Part shown: positions 42,132-55,980 of the stretch, one piece after another | Layout: every line of letters starts with the position of its first letter | Position numbering within the stretch: position 1 is the stretch's first letter | NCBI GenBank assembly: GCA_024697025.1 | Contig: JAILGH010000022.1 | Location: forward strand, 1 to 64,000 | DNA from: Pseudobutyrivibrio sp. | GTDB lineage: Bacteria; Bacillota; Clostridia; Lachnospirales; Lachnospiraceae | Length of the DNA: 64,000 nucleotides | Direction: 5' to 3' | Notes under the pieces: model-generated | What the model saw: the letters and a program-made list of their open reading frames with translations, nothing else | The model's database searches: none | Told to the model about the DNA's origin: nothing | Program-made: the position numbers and the translations under genes

Positions 42132-43247
42132 CTATATCATTTCCTCAATAACTTTAACTGCCCCTTTAGACTTTGACAAAATACCATAATCATTTGAATA
42201 TAAAATACATTCGAGCTTAAGAGCTCCACCGCATCTAAAGTCCAGATAAAACAAAATCTTTTCCATGGCATTTGCCATAGTCTCTTCTAAAATACCATTG
42301 GCCTCGATTATCTTTAGGGCTTCCTCTGTATTAAGACAGTCTAAAACATCCCTTGCCACCTGGCCATCGCAGCCAGCGCGCAAAGCACAGCTTGCAAGGA
42401 TTTCCATTCTTGCATCCGCCTCATGAGAATGGGTATTCATAATGCCTCCAGCCACTTTTATCATCTTTCCTATGTGGCCAGTGAGTAGTATTCCCTCAAA
42501 TCCCATCTGCTTTGCCATATCAACTGTCTCACCTATAAAGTTAGAACACTTTACGCTTTTATCCAAATCATAGCCAAACTTATCTAGCATAAACTTCTGC
42601 CCATAATTACCTGGAGATACTGCCACCCAGTTATGGCCCAAAGCCTTCTTTTGAGATAACTCAACCTTGATTGTATCCACCAAAGCCTTATTGCTCATTG
42701 GCTCCACAATCCCGGTAGTTCCAAGAATAGAAATCCCACCTTCGATTCCAAGCCTCGGATTAAAAGTGTGGCCAGCCAAATCCTTACCCTCAGGAACAGA
42801 AATGATTACATTTAAGGTGCCATTAAAATCAAGTAGATTACACACCTCAAGGACTTCTTTTTCAATCATTTCTCTTGGCACGTGATTTATCGCCGCATTT
42901 CCCACAGGCTGATCAAGTCCCGGAAGCGTAACTCTTCCAACACCTTCTCCTCCATCAATAATAACCTTCGCTTTGCCAGATAGTGCTTCAGAGTTTTCCT
43001 CCGCCACTGTGACTGTCGCCACCACATGTGCTCCCGTTGTCACGTCCGGGTCATCGCCACCATCCTTTATCACAGCACAGGTTACCTGATTGCCATTTCT
43101 TTCAATGTCCACTATTTCAGCATCAAACATCACCCCCGCAGGAGTCTCTATCTCTATCCTATTCTTACAGCTTCCGCTCAGCAACATATACGCCGCCGCC
43201 TTCGCAGCCGCAGCCGAACAGCTCCCAGTTGTAAATCCCTTCCTCAA
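42132..43247 (-). CDS. cbiD: cobalt-precorrin-5B C1-methyltransferase
   Basis: A 371-residue CbiD, which methylates C1 in the anaerobic pathway. It starts LRKGFTTGSCSAAAAKAAAYML, typical of the family. The TTG at 43247 is the likely start: AGGAGG stands 6 bases before it and overlaps the stop codon of cbiC. An upstream in-frame ATG at 43280 would lie inside cbiC and has no site. Other motifs are GGEGVGRVTLPGLDQPVGNAAINHVPR in pieces, ILGTTGIVEPMSNKALVDTI and GHIGKMIKVAGGIMNTHS. Confidence 0.93.
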   Translation of the reverse strand: MRKGFTTGSCSAAAAKAAAYMLLSGSCKNRIEIETPAGVMFDAEIVDIERNGNQVTCAVIKDGGDDPDVTTGAHVVATVTVAEENSEALSGKAKVIIDGGEGVGRVTLPGLDQPVGNAAINHVPREMIEKEVLEVCNLLDFNGTLNVIISVPEGKDLAGHTFNPRLGIEGGISILGTTGIVEPMSNKALVDTIKVELSQKKALGHNWVAVSPGNYGQKFMLDKFGYDLDKSVKCSNFIGETVDMAKQMGFEGILLTGHIGKMIKVAGGIMNTHSHEADARMEILASCALRAGCDGQVARDVLDCLNTEEALKIIEANGILEETMANAMEKILFYLDFRCGGALKLECILYSNDYGILSKSKGAVKVIEEMI

Positions 43248-49352: not shown

Positions 49353-50555
49353 TTATTTTAATGCTGCCTTTGTATGCTCTACATAAATCTTTTGAACAGC
49401 CTCGATTTCACCTAAGCCTGCAATCTGGCAATCAATTGACTCAAAATCGCCTGCTGCTGTAAACATAGACTTCCATGAATCCTCATCGTCACCTGCCATA
49501 TCGTTGTTTGCGTGATCACCAGCAACAACCATAAGTGGTCTAAGAACAACCTTTGTATATCCAGCCGCCTTAACAGCCTCAATAATATTCTCGCAAGCTG
49601 TCTCCTCAGGCTCACCCTCTACTGTTCCGATGTATACGTTGTCATATCCAAGCTTATCCATCTGAGTCTGCATCTGAGAATATGTAACCTTCGCTGTGTG
49701 ACTTGTACCATGTCCCATAAATACAAATGCTACACCATCCTTTGCAGCTGCCTCTATTGAAGCAAAGTTTCCATCAGCAACTGCCTGAGCAACTACTGCC
49801 TTTGCAACATTCTTCTTGTCAGCGTTAATATCATTTGCATCTGCTCCAACCTGTCCAAGCAATGGCTCAGCAATCTTTACTGAATCAAACTTGTCGCTAT
49901 AGCTTTCTACAGCTGCTGCCAAATCATCATACTCAGCGCCGTGCATAAGGTGTGTAGGCTGAACTACAAGAGTCTTAACACCGTTTGCCACAGCTCTATC
50001 TAATGCCTGCTCCACATTATCAATCTTCTCATCATCACGTGCCTGAATATGATTAATGATAATCTGTGATGTAAATGCTCTGCGAACTGACCAATTTGGA
50101 TTTGCCTTTGCGATGGCCTTTTCTACTCCACCGATGTCAGCTGCTCTGCTATCATTAAATGATGTACCAAAACTTACAACAAGGATTTCCTTCTCGCCGA
50201 TTTCATCCTGATTTAAAGGATCATCTGCAGAAGCATCACCTGTATCTCTACCAAAGTAATCAGGGTCAGCGTTCTCGCCTTCAACTAATTCCTTCTGGGC
50301 ATCTGTAAGATTATCCCAAGCCTGCTTAGCTGCGGCACACTGCTCATCTGTACTGTCATTGCGCTCTTGAACGTAAATAGCATCAATAAGTGCTGCACAA
50401 TTATCTGCTGCCACTTGATCTTCATCCTCCTGTGAAATTTCCACTGCCTCTTGCTCTGTCTCAGGTGCAGTTGGCTTCTTGGATGTGTCACCACATGCCA
50501 TAAATGAACTTGCAACCATAACCATAGCAAGTCCAAACACTAATTGTTTCTTCAT
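49353..50555 (-). CDS. cbiK: sirohydrochlorin cobaltochelatase, lipoprotein form
   Basis: A 400-residue CbiK with an added export part. Residues 1-21 are a lipoprotein signal peptide (lipobox SFMAC, Cys21), followed by an acidic linker and a helical piece (residues about 45-95). The chelatase begins EILVVSFGTSFNDSRAADIGG; metal-site residues are visible in QPTHLMHGAEYDD, FMGHGTSHTA, GTVEGEPEET and VVAGDHANNDMAGDD. It inserts cobalt into sirohydrochlorin, but the lipobox puts it outside the cytoplasm, away from the later enzymes. First gene after the riboswitch; GGAGG precedes ATG 50555. Confidence 0.92.
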   Translation of the reverse strand: MKKQLVFGLAMVMVASSFMACGDTSKKPTAPETEQEAVEISQEDEDQVAADNCAALIDAIYVQERNDSTDEQCAAAKQAWDNLTDAQKELVEGENADPDYFGRDTGDASADDPLNQDEIGEKEILVVSFGTSFNDSRAADIGGVEKAIAKANPNWSVRRAFTSQIIINHIQARDDEKIDNVEQALDRAVANGVKTLVVQPTHLMHGAEYDDLAAAVESYSDKFDSVKIAEPLLGQVGADANDINADKKNVAKAVVAQAVADGNFASIEAAAKDGVAFVFMGHGTSHTAKVTYSQMQTQMDKLGYDNVYIGTVEGEPEETACENIIEAVKAAGYTKVVLRPLMVVAGDHANNDMAGDDEDSWKSMFTAAGDFESIDCQIAGLGEIEAVQKIYVEHTKAALK

Positions 50556-50597
50556 TATAATTTCCTCCATAATGAAAATATATGCAGACTCAAAAAT

Positions 50598-50620
50598 TAA
50601 AAAAGGGCCCAAGTGGACCC
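50598..50620 (-). terminator. riboswitch expression-platform terminator
   Basis: On the minus strand GGGTCC, loop ACTT, GGGCCC, then TTTTTTAATTTTT. It lies between the cobalamin aptamer and cbiK, the position expected for ligand-induced termination. Confidence 0.85.
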
Positions 50621-50672
50621 TAACAATCATAATAAATTAAGATTCGAAGTCCGCAAATCATTAATTGTAAGA

Positions 50673-50838
50673 TTAGGCAGGTCTCCTGACTTCGATCAAC
50701 GCTTGCTTTCCCTTCCCAATAAAACTCAGTGTTTTTGAAAGCAAACTCCCTAACACAGTGACGGCTTCGTTCTGGATTCTCACCAGATTCCCTTTTCACC
50801 CATACTACTTCGTATAAACGAAACATATGGACACCTTA
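50673..50838 (-). ncRNA. cobalamin riboswitch
   Basis: The minus strand contains the hallmarks of the cobalamin aptamer in order: AAGGTGTCC..., GGGTGAAAAGGGAATCTGG, TGAGAATCCAGAACG, AGCCGTCACTGTG (B12-box region with the CACTG), and the 3' AGTCAGGAGACCTGCC. Length about 165 nt, within the normal range. It precedes a terminator and the cbiK-to-cobD operon, so cobalamin should shut the operon off. Confidence 0.95.
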
Positions 50839-50851
50839 ATCCCTATGAAAC

Positions 50852-50880
50852 ATATTATATTTTTTCGCCTCTTAGGTCAA
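50852..50880 (-). promoter_or_regulatory. promoter of cobalamin operon
   Basis: TTGACC (50880-50875), a 17-base spacer and TAATAT (50857-50852) on the minus strand; the overlapping TATAAT gives a 15-base spacer. It starts 5 bases after the stop codon of the GGDEF-EAL gene and lies just ahead of the riboswitch. Confidence 0.8.
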
Positions 50881-50884
50881 ACCT

Positions 50885-52633
50885 TTATTCATTAGAAATA
50901 GACACAATTACAACCTCTAATGCCACTGCTTTCGTCAGCTCATTTTTTCCTATTGCCTTCAAAAATACATCAACAAGGAATTTTCCCTCATGGCTATTCT
51001 GTAACCTCTCCCATTTACCAGATTCAAAGCACTTATCAACTGCCTCCATAAATCGTGGTTCCGGCATCCTTTTAATCAATATTTTACCAGTGCCCAAATC
51101 CTCTTTATTGATAAACTCTGTATTGAGCAAAAACATGGCATAGGTCTTGTTGTACCTTAGAATCTCTAGCTGGCCATCAACTATTTCTATTACCCCCATA
51201 GGGTGTGGGCCAAAGAAATTATCAGGATCAATTTGATATTCCTCATCAATATCCGGTTCAATCAAGTTAGCCTTACTGATTAGTTCGTAGTACTTTGACT
51301 CACTAACTTCCTCTGTAGGATTTCCGATACTTGTTTTAATAATCAAATGCTTGTTTTCAAGAGAATTTGGCTTGCCCCAATAGTAACCCTGCATTTTATT
51401 TGCACCAATTTCTCTTAAAAATCTAGCTTGTTCTATTGTCTCAACACCCTCTATGACTGTATCTATATCAAGCTTTGTAATCATCTGGACCAATTCCTTC
51501 ATGATTACATGATTCTTCTTGGACTCAGCAAATTCTCGCATGAATCTCATATCAAACTTGATTGTGTCAAAATCAAAGCTTTGCAGCATGTTAAGAGATG
51601 AATAGCCACTGCCAAAATCATCCATCCAAATCTTAAAGCCCGCAGCATGAACCTTTGCAATCTGCTCCTGCAAAAAATCTTTATCTAGTGTTGATGCACT
51701 CTCTGTTACCTCAAGAGTAATCAAACTTGGATCTATATTTGCAAACCTAACTCGTTTTAAAATCTCTCCAACTATATCGCATAAATGAAAATCATATTTT
51801 GAAATGTTAATAGATACAGGAATAACCGGAAGCCCCAAACTCTTGGTATGGTTCATATCAGCAAGAGCCATCTCCACAATGTGCAAATCCAAAAGATGTA
51901 TCAGTTTGGCATCTTCTAGCACATAGATAAACTCGTCCGGTGGAATTATTCCCTCCGTAGGGTCAATCCATCTAGCAAGGGCCTCTTCATCACAGATCTT
52001 GCCGTTAACCGAACGAATAATTGGCTGGTAATATGGCCTTATCCATTTTTCCTCTATAGCTTTTTCGAAATTATTTAAGACATAAATAACTCTATTAGAC
52101 CTTTTATGTAACTCCTCGTCATAAAAAGTGTACGTACAAACGTGAACACCCTTTTCCTTATCGCTGGCAAGCTTTGCTCTATCGCAGGCGGTACTTGCAC
52201 TTACATCCTCAAAAGACATAGGATAAATGCCTGCATGTACCGGCAACGTTCTTCCGTCATTAACGTGTTTAAAATCCTTAAAAATGGCAAGGAGCTTGTC
52301 CTCAATCCCCTCCTCATCGCCAAAAGCCGCAAAATGATCCTGCCCCATTCTGCCGCAGCATTTTACGGAAAAATGGTTCTCCAACACTTTGGCAAAAGCA
52401 ATCAGCAAATTGTCCCCTTCCTTTAGCCCATACTTTTCGTTAAAGAACTTCATTCCCTTTAAATCAAAATACAGCATAACAGGACGCTTGCCATCAGCCA
52501 CCATCAACTTTTTGCCTGCGTCCGCCAACTGCAAAAAATAGGACATATTAGGCAAACTCGTCAGTGTATCAAACTGATTTTCTCGAATAAGGCGCTTATT
52601 CCTTTCTACTCTCTCTAACTCATTCATAGCCAT
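50885..52633 (-). CDS. EAL phosphodiesterase with degenerate GGDEF domain
   Basis: A 582-residue cyclic-di-GMP protein. The GGDEF domain (about 25-180) has GQDHF in place of the active motif, so it should not make cyclic-di-GMP. The EAL domain (about 195-440) keeps CDEEALARW, VSINISKYDF, LEVTES, WMDDFGSGYSS, IKFDMRFM and VIEGVET, so phosphodiesterase activity is likely. A PAS-like tail (about 470-575: GVIEIVDGQLEILRYNKTYAMF) follows. No membrane segment. ATG 52633 has GGAGG 6 bases upstream. A TATAAT on the minus strand at 52693 is a possible promoter; the large palindrome lies farther upstream. Confidence 0.92.
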   Translation of the reverse strand: MAMNELERVERNKRLIRENQFDTLTSLPNMSYFLQLADAGKKLMVADGKRPVMLYFDLKGMKFFNEKYGLKEGDNLLIAFAKVLENHFSVKCCGRMGQDHFAAFGDEEGIEDKLLAIFKDFKHVNDGRTLPVHAGIYPMSFEDVSASTACDRAKLASDKEKGVHVCTYTFYDEELHKRSNRVIYVLNNFEKAIEEKWIRPYYQPIIRSVNGKICDEEALARWIDPTEGIIPPDEFIYVLEDAKLIHLLDLHIVEMALADMNHTKSLGLPVIPVSINISKYDFHLCDIVGEILKRVRFANIDPSLITLEVTESASTLDKDFLQEQIAKVHAAGFKIWMDDFGSGYSSLNMLQSFDFDTIKFDMRFMREFAESKKNHVIMKELVQMITKLDIDTVIEGVETIEQARFLREIGANKMQGYYWGKPNSLENKHLIIKTSIGNPTEEVSESKYYELISKANLIEPDIDEEYQIDPDNFFGPHPMGVIEIVDGQLEILRYNKTYAMFLLNTEFINKEDLGTGKILIKRMPEPRFMEAVDKCFESGKWERLQNSHEGKFLVDVFLKAIGKNELTKAVALEVVIVSISNE

Positions 52634-52734
52634 ACATGCCCTCCAAAGACACAACAGCTATCCTCCCCAGCACACGGCTCAAATTGAATTATAACCAATA
52701 AATATGGATATATTGTGGACACTTTGTGGCTGTC

Positions 52735-53344
52735 GTTACTATTCGCAGTTATTCTTTAATTCTCTAGGGGGCGACTCCTGCCACGTAGTTATAGGTGAAT
52801 TAGAACAGAATAATAGATTCTCTTGTTGCTGCAAATGTAGCTTTAAGTGGGTGTCCTTTCATTGATTTTGCACTTTGAAGCTACTGTATGTACGGATCAG
52901 ACACTTTAAGATTACATAATTCCCCTATAAGGTATATGGACCCTAGTTGCCTTCATGTTACATTCATCAAGTGTAATTAAGAAAATGAGTTTTGGAGATA
53001 TGGGCACCAGTCAAGATTCACATCCATGTTCAACTTTCCTTGACCTCGCCGTCCTTGGCTCGGTCTGCCCATATCTTTCAAAACTCATTTTCTATTCCAC
53101 TAGATTCATTCCACAAATCAGGCAACTAGGGTCCATACACCTTTATAGGGGAATCTACTTTATATAGAGTGTGTCTGATCCATACATACTGTAGCGAAAG
53201 AAGTGCAAATAATTGAAAGAACACCCACAATAAAGAAAGCTACATGCAGCAACTATAGAGAATCATTATTCTGTGATTGAACCTATAACTACGTGGCAGG
53301 AGTCTCCCCAAGAAAATTAAATCTAAAAGACTGCGAATAGTAAC
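52735..53344. other. 610-nt imperfect palindrome, possible structured RNA
   Basis: The whole gap between the GGDEF-EAL gene and the TetM-like gene is a giant inverted repeat with arms 52735-53005 and 53067-53344. Uninterrupted complementary blocks include 15 bp (52735-52749 with 53330-53344), 24 bp (52773-52796 with 53281-53304), 11 bp (52894-52904 with 53171-53181), 12 bp (52919-52930 with 53143-53154), 18 bp (52935-52952 with 53120-53137) and 15 plus 10 bp next to the centre. The 61-nt centre can form smaller hairpins. No open frame of note is inside. It may be a structured RNA, a fold-back mobile element or a long-decayed inverted duplication. Confidence 0.8.
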
Positions 53345-53358
53345 AGAGGCACTTTCAA

Positions 53359-55923
53359 CTATTTAATATCATAGGCTTCTCGAAGCTCTATGGCTTTGCG
53401 CTCTACTTCAGCAATAAACTCTCTAGAAGATAGCAGCTTAGCGCCAGCGCCTCTAATGATAACCTGCTCCATTCCATCAGATGTGACAACCGTTATATCG
53501 TATTTCTTGCCGTGCTCGTGAGTGAAGCGCTCTATATAGGCATCTGCCGTCTGGGCTTCCGCAGTAAACACCTGATGGATGTTGAGATAATCTGAGGCAG
53601 TCACCTCATGCCTCTTCACCTTGTAGGCATCAAAAACCGCAATTACGTTATAGTCTGTCATAGCCTTGTAGTTGCTTAATATATCAAGAAGCTTTCCACG
53701 GGCTCCATCTAGATTTATATCCAACACTTCCTTAAGCTCGGGCCAAGCATAGATAAGGTTGTAGCCATCTACCAAGAGGTATTTATCCCTAGGCTTGATT
53801 TCCTTAGGTGCCTTATAGACATAGTCAGAATCCACTCTTCTTACATGGCTACCATCGCCGTAATGCCAACCCTTTTTAGGGTTTTTCCCATGGTTGCTAT
53901 GGGTTGCGCTATACAATATTTTATCTATCTCATCTGGGTCCAACCACTCATCAACATCATGGTTCATTCGCTTGCCTGCTGGAATCTCTAGGTCATCATC
54001 CACAGTCTTATCCTTTAGGCAAGGCACATGGCATCGCTCCTTTACCTGCTGCCAAGGCACAATTTCCGCAGAGCCATGACTACAAAATACCGATGCAGCT
54101 GGATTGTCAACGTTGCTATCCGGATTATAACCTGAAGCTTCAATCACCTCCTCAGGGTTGTGACATTCATCGTATCCGTCATAAACCAATGAGATTCTGC
54201 CCTCGCCCTTTGAAAAGGTTGCAAGCTCCACCTGATAATTCCTAATGGTGGCTGCTGGTGCACGACCAGTTATTGTTGATACTCCATTTTCCTCTGTTGG
54301 TGCCTCAAAGCTTCCCTTAAGATTTTGGATATCAGTCATAACACGACCTATCTGACCTGATGGCACCGTAATTACGAATCTAAAATAAGGCTCCAAAATC
54401 TTGGTACCAACCTCCATAAGTCCCTGTCGAATTGCTCTATAAGAGGCCTCTCTAAAGTCACCACCCTCTGTATGCTTAATGTGAGCCCGTCCTCCTACAA
54501 TAGTGTATTTAACATCTGTTAACGGTGCTCCAATTGCAACTCCTAGATGCTCCTTCTCCAAAATATGGGTTGTGATAAGCCTTTGCCAGTTAAGAGCCAG
54601 TTCGTCTGTGGAAACATCTGTATCCACTACAATTCCACTGCCACTTTCAAGAGGCTCCATCAAAATATGGGCCTCCGCATAATGACGAAGTGGTTCAAAA
54701 TGACCTACCCCCTCAACCGCATTTGCGATAGTCTCCTTATATAAAACACCGCACTCCTGAAACTCAACCTTTAGACCAAGCTCCTTTTCAATTCGTGCAG
54801 TTAAAATCTCTGTCTGTACCTGCCCCATAAGATTTAACTTAATCTGATCTAAAGCAGAATCCCAAGTAACCTTTAGTGAAGGGTCCTCTTCATTTAAAGC
54901 CATAAGCTTTGGAAATGCCACCCTAGGAACAGTATCATCCAAAAAACAAATCTGATACTGAAGGACAGGTGTAAGTGTAAGCTCAGGCCTGTCATCTTCC
55001 ACTCCAAGGCCCTGGCCCACGTATGTTTCCTTTGGTCCAACCAAGGCAACTAGCTGTGATACCCCTGCCTCATCAACCTGCTGGTACTTAAGGCCAGAAT
55101 AAATACGAATCTGGTCCACCTTTTCCCCATTAGGCAATACCTGCTTAACCTTGATTTTGCCTGATGTAAGCTTTACAAAAGTAAGCCTTGTGTCTCTTCC
55201 AAGACTTTCAATCTTATAAACTCGCCCGCCAAAAGGCTCCTCTGATAATCCTTGAAGGCTATTAGCCATCTCTTTTTCCAGTGCCGCTATCAGCTTAAGC
55301 AAATCATCTACGCCCTGATTCTTAAGAGCAGAGCCTGATAGAATCGGAAAAATCTTTCTATCTAAAATAAGCTGATTAACAGTAGCAAAAGAAAGCTTGC
55401 CTTCCTCTAAGTATTCATCCATGGCGCATTCGTCCTCAGATGCAATGGCCTCAGCATCATCGTAAAACACACAGTTATCTGCAAGCTCAGCTTTAATACC
55501 AGCTAACAACTCCTCTCTATCGCAATCTGGCATATCCATTTTGTTAATAAAAATAATTGTAGGAATATTGAATTTTTCTAAGAGAGAAAAAAGAGTCTTG
55601 GTATGAGGCTGAACTCCTGCCGTACCACTGATTAAAAGAATTGCTCCATCTAAGGCCCAAAGAGCGCGCTCAGTTTCCGCAGCAAAATCCACATGCCCCG
55701 GAGTATCAAGCAATGTAATCATAGAGCCATCATAATCAAACACAGCTTGCTTAGAATATATGGTGATTCCTCTAGTCTTTTCCTGGGAATCTGTATCTAA
55801 AAAAGCGTCACCATGGTCAACACGACCAATGGACGCTATTTTACCCCCGTTATATAAAATTGCTTCCGATAATGTAGTTTTGCCCGCATCTACGTGGGCC
55901 ATTATTCCCCAAGTTGAATTCAT
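53359..55923 (-). CDS. TetM-like translation GTPase fused to NYN nuclease
   Basis: An 854-residue fusion. The first 640 residues have the EF-G/TetM order: G domain with AHVDAGKTTLSEA, DTPGHVDFAAE, INKMDMP and SGSALKNQ, then domains II-V (IVPWQ and the IV-V region with TVPSGQIGRVMTDIQNLKGSF). After a charged linker, residues about 705-850 are a YacP/Rae1-type NYN domain: LLVDGYNLIYAW, VFDAYKV, TADAYIERF and TSDGMEQ supply the metal-binding aspartates. The TetM part binds the ribosome A site and Rae1 cleaves mRNA there, so ribosome-linked RNA cleavage is a natural guess. ATG 55923 has AAAGG 9 bases upstream. Third gene after argS and rsmF. Confidence 0.93.
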   Translation of the reverse strand: MNSTWGIMAHVDAGKTTLSEAILYNGGKIASIGRVDHGDAFLDTDSQEKTRGITIYSKQAVFDYDGSMITLLDTPGHVDFAAETERALWALDGAILLISGTAGVQPHTKTLFSLLEKFNIPTIIFINKMDMPDCDREELLAGIKAELADNCVFYDDAEAIASEDECAMDEYLEEGKLSFATVNQLILDRKIFPILSGSALKNQGVDDLLKLIAALEKEMANSLQGLSEEPFGGRVYKIESLGRDTRLTFVKLTSGKIKVKQVLPNGEKVDQIRIYSGLKYQQVDEAGVSQLVALVGPKETYVGQGLGVEDDRPELTLTPVLQYQICFLDDTVPRVAFPKLMALNEEDPSLKVTWDSALDQIKLNLMGQVQTEILTARIEKELGLKVEFQECGVLYKETIANAVEGVGHFEPLRHYAEAHILMEPLESGSGIVVDTDVSTDELALNWQRLITTHILEKEHLGVAIGAPLTDVKYTIVGGRAHIKHTEGGDFREASYRAIRQGLMEVGTKILEPYFRFVITVPSGQIGRVMTDIQNLKGSFEAPTEENGVSTITGRAPAATIRNYQVELATFSKGEGRISLVYDGYDECHNPEEVIEASGYNPDSNVDNPAASVFCSHGSAEIVPWQQVKERCHVPCLKDKTVDDDLEIPAGKRMNHDVDEWLDPDEIDKILYSATHSNHGKNPKKGWHYGDGSHVRRVDSDYVYKAPKEIKPRDKYLLVDGYNLIYAWPELKEVLDINLDGARGKLLDILSNYKAMTDYNVIAVFDAYKVKRHEVTASDYLNIHQVFTAEAQTADAYIERFTHEHGKKYDITVVTSDGMEQVIIRGAGAKLLSSREFIAEVERKAIELREAYDIK

Positions 55924-55980
55924 CAATACTAACCTTTCACAAGCTATATTTTACTGACCATCAAACGTAGCCATAATAAT

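Follow-up and report, generated by a model that had tools for sequence, protein, structure and literature searches.

The 610-nt palindrome at 52735–53344 of the window (the whole 64,000-nt stretch of Pseudobutyrivibrio DNA that was analysed) is best read, with a probability of roughly 0.55, as one copy of a mobile, dispersed family of MITE/REP-like palindromes at gene 3′ ends, with an apex, Rfam RF01731 (TwoAYGGAY), that is probably under selection and perhaps binds CsrA, and with arms that would be kept paired at the DNA level. By computation, the family has many copies, is present or absent at the same place in different species, is built of modules, and carries an apex that inverts and is conserved at resident sites. 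The modules are a conserved apex with inner arms, locus-specific outer arms that are nonetheless paired, and, in some species, shared ends.

The original prediction of a long inverted repeat with extended blocks was correct, and the repeat lies far beyond chance, the local alignment of one arm to the other scoring 239 against at most 25 in 20 shuffles. The features of the element and its surroundings are as follows.

52735..53344, minus strand: entire quasi-palindrome, its strand set by the RF01731 apex
52735..53005, no strand assigned: left arm, 271 nt, from the block search
53067..53344, no strand assigned: right arm, 278 nt, from the block search
52735..52749, plus strand: inverted end GTTACTATTCGCAGT
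53330..53344, minus strand: inverted end GTTACTATTCGCAGT, opposite side
52768-52796/53281-53309: paired block of 29 nt, 97%
52880-52904/53171-53195: paired block of 25 nt, 92%
52929-52952/53120-53143: paired block of 24 nt, 96%
52735-52749/53330-53344 and 52980-52994/53079-53093: perfect 15-nt blocks
52956..53115, minus strand: apex, RF01731 TwoAYGGAY, 62.5 bits (gathering 43) in the covariance-model scan
53051..53056, minus strand: first hexaloop AAGGAC (A replaces Y), from the sequence and the RF01731 alignment
53022..53027, minus strand: second hexaloop ATGGAT, within ACATGGATGT, from the sequence and the RF01731 alignment
53359..55926, minus strand: gene for an EF-G/tetracycline-protection-like GTPase with a C-terminal NYN_YacP domain, stop codon 14 nt from the element
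50885..52654, minus strand: gene for a GGDEF-EAL protein on the other side, with the element upstream of it

As anticipated, the palindrome fills the gap between two minus-strand genes and has no coding content; a 70-aa ORF (52955-53167, plus strand) spans the apex but has no support as a gene. Across 52600-53460, a simple consensus scan, with other promoter types outside its reach, gave no promoter-like or terminator-like site. The GTPase–NYN_YacP fusion scores under the resistance-gene cut-offs, and the 3′ part of its gene is present in 29/29 genus genomes. Elsewhere in the window, a Cobalamin riboswitch (50659-50853, minus strand, 83.3 bits) lies directly upstream of a 425-aa ORF (49353-50630), whose product we take to resemble a CbiK-type cobaltochelatase.

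Folded as RNA, the 610-nt element reaches minimum free energies of −334.1 (minus strand, z −24.2) and −315.3 kcal/mol (plus strand, z −25.2), with 0/20 shuffles as low in either case, which bears out the expectation that the two strands fold almost identically. The internal loops had also been described as evenly spaced, and this does not extend to the family: across 81 copies the mismatches are unevenly spaced, with near-random spacing in the inner arms and, in the outer arms, 43 perfect runs of at least 25 against 13.8 expected from shuffles. We therefore rejected an even mismatch spacing that caps perfect runs (by palindrome cleavage, for example), as the long outer-arm runs exceed the shuffles.

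The apex has the two hairpins and AYGGAY-type hexaloops of RF01731, and the motif was recovered at 19/20 loci scanned with Rfam. TwoAYGGAY is rated as probably RNA and not cis-regulatory in a table of PMC2864571. The suggestion of a structured RNA stands in part, in that an RNA-like motif is present as this known apex, but the comparison with the ROOL, GOLLD and OLE models gave no match in the window at gathering (the whole-window Rfam scan yielded Cobalamin and TwoAYGGAY alone) and the arms are not enriched in G·U. Among 116 distinct apexes, 70 contain at least two ANGGA motifs and 22 contain none, with a mean per apex of 1.55 on the Rfam strand against 0.14 on the opposite strand. In 18/20 genomes the Rfam strand gives the better fold of single apexes; the consensus energy of the apex alignment is nearly strand-equal (−63.1 vs −62.8). 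Beside the hexaloops, G·A mispairs outnumber C·T mispairs by 54 to 11 in 61 stems whose first two pairs are Watson–Crick, and by 77 to 18 in 80 stems when this filter is removed, a strand-specific sign. Hexaloop stems at the level of the class have 6-8 G·U and 0-3 A·C pairs. Those of the genus and family have no clear excess of G·U over A·C, which leaves RNA-level selection of the apex short of proof. An exact apex pattern search of the genome contig collection returned 0 matches.

The search for further copies in the same genome (G000, 2.71 Mb, 110 contigs) found many scattered relatives: 39 BLAST matches for the element plus short flanks and 15 RF01731 matches, giving about 15 copies of the repeat. 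RF01731 matches are present in 27/29 Pseudobutyrivibrio genomes, with a maximum of 49 in G022 (E 0.001), and these relatives exclude a recent private inverted duplication, one of the origins first considered. Matches are sparser further out, at 8/146 genomes of the order sample (7 over the cut-off) and 36/391 of the class sample (27 over the cut-off). Arm pairing exceeds the shuffled control in 56/57 genus copies, the remaining copy being broken by a contig end, and the spans of these 57 copies reach 850 nt; relatives taken together cover about 210–850 nt. In four other genera of the family, sixteen copies measure 211-356 nt, and three loci from two more distant genomes have no long arms. In 20 aligned copies from G022, a conserved middle of roughly 470-500 nt is flanked by arm bases that are copy-specific yet still paired; in G000 the variable paired part, which separates inner arms from 15-nt ends, is shorter. 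One locus (L016, G000:C3 near 42203-42546) has kept its arms and lost the RF01731 apex by internal deletion.

At the site of the window copy, 26 of 28 informative other species have nothing palindromic within 800 nt that scores above 32, and two (G011 and G022) have an element of their own, with scores of 223 and 275. An Rfam scan of 20 of these loci is in agreement.

Both inverted ends GTTACYATTCACAGT are recognisable, taken as within 7 mismatches in total, in 19/65 listed copies (G000, G014, G022 and G011), so terminal inverted repeats common to copies, as in MITEs, are found in this subset; copies in G002 and G003 are without them. No target-site duplication is visible at the window copy, in agreement with the original prediction, and an exact 8-bp duplication was found in 1/19 copies with recognisable ends (L165). 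Partial direct matches at length 8 are in weak excess in the 19 copies (p 0.063); including ten of the 192-bp elements described below gives p 0.016, uncorrected for ten lengths, and among lengths 3 to 12 the excess occurs at 8 only. Together with the exact case at L165, this suggests old 8-bp target duplications. Scattered copies with target duplications and no covariation had been named as the mark of a transposon remnant: the dispersal is there, but the duplications are mostly not visible and arm covariation exists, without G·U enrichment. Among the three origins initially proposed, a fold-back, MITE-like element fits best, given the dispersal, the partly common inverted ends and a site that is occupied in some relatives and empty in others.

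The same ends GTTACYATTCACAGT are shared by elements of about 192 bp that carry their own sequence-variable paired stems. In these (L378-L383, L385-L388, L395), the ends GTTACTATTCACAGT form a closing stem with inner hairpins inside. Three match RF01699 (Clostridiales-1) weakly, the best at 29.3 bits (gathering 48). The 192-bp elements occur also in G010, where the RF01731 scan gave no match.

The element matched nothing among 50,697 phage and 72,556 plasmid records at E 1e-5; the exact 15-mer end was found in 21 viral-contig stretches. An IS4-type element sits between such ends in G003. Its transposase as the mover of the palindromes was weakened as a candidate, as relatives of this IS4-type element begin at CAATGTCATTAAG inside different inverted flanks, and the ends therefore look like an IS4 target. 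The G003 transposase has no match in G000, and no transposase owning the palindrome's ends was established. IS4-type insertion sequences with inner ends like CAATGTCATTAAG lie within unrelated inverted flanks, some of them terminator-like, and two of the sites have flanks like TwoAYGGAY arms; from these sequences, the IS4-type elements seem to target hairpin tips. The IS4-type sites are as follows.

L399, L400, L401: ends near 1259, 1215 and 1319
L416, L419: further sites
L377, 7794-9503: element with PF01609 and NF033592
L392, from 1043: site with ATTCACAGT in direct orientation flanking both sides

The copies lie at gene 3′ ends. Of 95 classified copies, 31 lie between convergent genes, 56 between tandem genes and 8 between divergent genes, against 14, 119 and 19 nearby gene pairs, respectively. 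Median distances from the hairpin base are 5 nt to a stop codon (n=118) and 98.5 nt to a gene start (n=72), and the core has no preferred orientation relative to tandem genes (24 same, 32 opposite). This closeness to stop codons, the convergent excess and the random orientation are what would be expected of a REP-like hairpin that stabilises or ends the messages of flanking genes irrespective of its orientation, with the apex loops serving another binder. We consider such a role unlikely, though worth keeping in view: terminator-like hairpins are already in place outside the element for the genes that flank L265, L281 and L288, the window copy has no terminator-like site, and the conservation of the apex is left unexplained.

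That conservation, and the inversion of the apex, emerge from 11 orthologous pairs in close species. In six pairs the apexes have the same orientation, with 91.1-99.3% collinear identity. Four have collinear flanks around a clean inversion of the apex, with 96.6-100% identity when inverted and 80.6-86.0% when collinear (one of the four, L267/L276, being judged from a single flank). In the remaining pair, L265/L281, the site is taken by a distinct and shorter element. Flank counts are available for seven of the pairs, in which 9/1042 sites changed in the oriented apex and 166/2608 in the flanks (p 1.4e-15); without L293/L301, which contributes 70 of the 166 flank changes, the counts are 7/894 and 96/2222 (p 4.5e-8). 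In L273/L283, apex and flanks are equally changed (2/150 vs 5/338). By these sequence comparisons, the apex is strongly conserved at resident sites in either orientation. Ectopic gene conversion is unneeded as an explanation of the apex similarity between close species, with most oriented orthologous apexes being 96.6-100% identical; it may contribute over longer times.

The dispersal, the common inverted ends, the one exact 8-bp duplication and the weak excess of partial ones could also be expected of plain MITE remnants, functionless non-autonomous copies mobilised in trans whose conserved parts reflect only recent spread. We find this improbable, as the apex is far more conserved than the flanks at orthologous resident sites and the apex family is found in many Clostridia families without such ends.

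The arms tell a different story from ordinary RNA helices. The ratio of G·U to A·C is 159:118 (about 1.35) in the inner arms, 174:252 (0.7) in the outer arms (beyond 235 nt from the centre, Rfam strand) and 138:99 in the aligned apexes. Helices of control RNAs from the same genus (RNase P, lysine riboswitch, S10 leader and tRNA) give 18:1; this control is small, and its model-based alignment favours standard pairs. Copy by copy, the outer arms of 95 copies have more A·C than G·T on the Rfam strand in 48 and the reverse in 17, with 30 ties; an excess of A·C on this strand is an excess of G·U on the opposite one. Four uninverted orthologous pairs contain 12 double changes that preserve Watson–Crick pairs, five of them within 10 bp. 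The proposed check for arm covariation therefore had a divided outcome: covariation exists, but it lacks the G·U enrichment of control RNAs, which points to DNA-level copying between the arms. The pattern suggests that arm pairing is not maintained by ordinary RNA-level selection.

Passages in PMC8604942 and PMC8794818 describe template switching between inverted repeats, which homogenises arms and inverts spacers. In our preferred reading of a dispersed palindrome paired at the DNA level, template switching during replication would copy one arm from the other, so that the arms stay paired, and would occasionally invert the tip; the apex inversion is what such switching would be expected to do. 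No selection for a 600-nt RNA helix would be involved. Several observations count against this reading: the exact 8-bp duplication occurs in only 1/19 copies, G002 and G003 lack the ends, no transposase could be assigned to them, the promoter scan was empty, the core is near-randomly oriented among tandem genes, the apex consensus folds almost equally on both strands, and the outer-arm excess of A·C is unaccounted for.

Paired arms without G·U enrichment, the strand-specific G·A mispairs at the hexaloops and the apex inversion might also be produced by a folded single-stranded DNA site, in the manner of an integron attC or a phage hairpin, at which a recombinase or replication protein recognises one hairpin strand and leaves the helices free in sequence and without G·U. 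G·A mispairs are tolerated by DNA too. We regard such a site as quite unlikely, as no recombinase is linked to the element, template switching alone explains the arms and the inversion, and the hexaloop stems at class level are more RNA-like in their pairs. No better placed is a large structured non-coding RNA with long helices selected as RNA across the whole 610 nt, which would account for the very stable fold on both strands and for the 12 double changes, but is hard to reconcile with arm G·U to A·C ratios so far below those of control RNAs, with apex inversion, with arm lengths that vary greatly between copies even at one site (352 vs 700 nt) and with the empty promoter scan.

The selected part of the element, in the reading we prefer, would be a two-hairpin RNA whose AYGGAY hexaloops bind CsrA, to which we give a little under an even chance. 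The CsrA consensus is RUACARGGAUGU. The hexaloops of the apex resemble CsrA sites, and the window copy presents GGA within hairpin loops as CsrB-type RNAs do; its own promoter and terminator were not found by the simple consensus scan of 52600-53460. TwoAYGGAY has been proposed as a CsrA binder by motif match in a section of PMC4333381. A CsrA gene is present in the same genome (G000:C83:27962-28117), in 28/29 genus genomes, and, in the order sample, in 8/8 RF01731-positive genomes against 98/146 overall. Within the class Clostridia it is present in 25/30 RF01731-positive and 9/47 negative genomes (p 2.6e-8), the positives being called at E 0.001 and some falling below the RF01731 cut-off. The five class positives without CsrA include G446 (95% complete) and G488 (98% complete); in family f31, CsrA is missing from the positive and present in both negatives examined. 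This co-occurrence may come largely from shared ancestry. The csrA gene of G022 is followed, after about 370 nt, by a TwoAYGGAY copy (G022:C1:229517-229672 and 230041-230200).

If the apex does bind CsrA, correctly oriented copies that are transcribed would act as local or titrating CsrA sites, at odds again slightly short of even. The near-random, flipping orientation of the core is not predicted by a CsrA site serving its host mRNA. A far more speculative scheme, which we think has little chance of being right, makes the tip of each of the dozens of 3′-end copies an invertible switch that would toggle the AYGGAY loops between strands by inversion coupled to replication, presenting or hiding predicted CsrA sites in through-running transcripts and so forming a scattered, heritably variable array that titrates CsrA.

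The family borders on several known systems. The apexes of this element and its relatives pass the RF01731 gathering score, but that model covers 168 positions, whereas here it forms the invertible tip of palindromes of up to ~850 nt that are dispersed in many copies. The GGA-bearing hexaloops and the accompanying CsrA genes recall CsrB-type sRNAs. Those RNAs are encoded by few stand-alone genes with many sites each; here the copies are numerous, each has about two sites, and no promoter was recognised. Dispersal, lack of coding content, inverted ends and location near gene 3′ ends are shared with bacterial MITEs and with REP/REPIN sequences. REPs are given as 20-40 bp in a passage of PMC3733652, a short unit that differs from the 610 nt here and the range of sizes among relatives. 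From REP/REPIN and MITEs alike, the element is further set apart by its Rfam core, its locus-specific paired arms and target duplications that are mostly not visible. A likeness to RF01699 runs through the 192-bp elements of the genus, with their GTTACYATTCACAGT ends and sequence-variable paired stems; these match that model weakly and are without the TwoAYGGAY core. Finally, arm homogenisation, clustered compensatory changes and spacer inversion are features of template-switch inverted repeats, but the cases in the relevant passages of PMC8604942 and PMC8794818 have short loops or spacers, in contrast with an apex of at least 150 nt within arms of hundreds of nucleotides here. In the literature searched, which did not extend to the supplement of PMC2864571, we found no account of dispersal or palindromes of TwoAYGGAY, of arm evolution at the DNA level or of tip inversion, and novelty is not claimed.

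With its known and conserved RNA-like tip, this dispersed palindrome amounts to more than junk and to less than a new RNA class. Covariation is widely taken to prove RNA structure. The long hairpin studied here covaries, yet it lacks the G·U signature of control RNAs and its tip inverts, so that its arms are better explained by DNA-level copying; strong conservation is confined to the apex. The Rfam orphan TwoAYGGAY is tied to dispersed palindromic elements, with Clostridiales-1 perhaps a second such case through the shared ends, and pairs of related species allow arm homogenisation and inversion to be measured. Should the apex bind CsrA, regulatory RNA sites in these Clostridia would be coming from mobile repeats.
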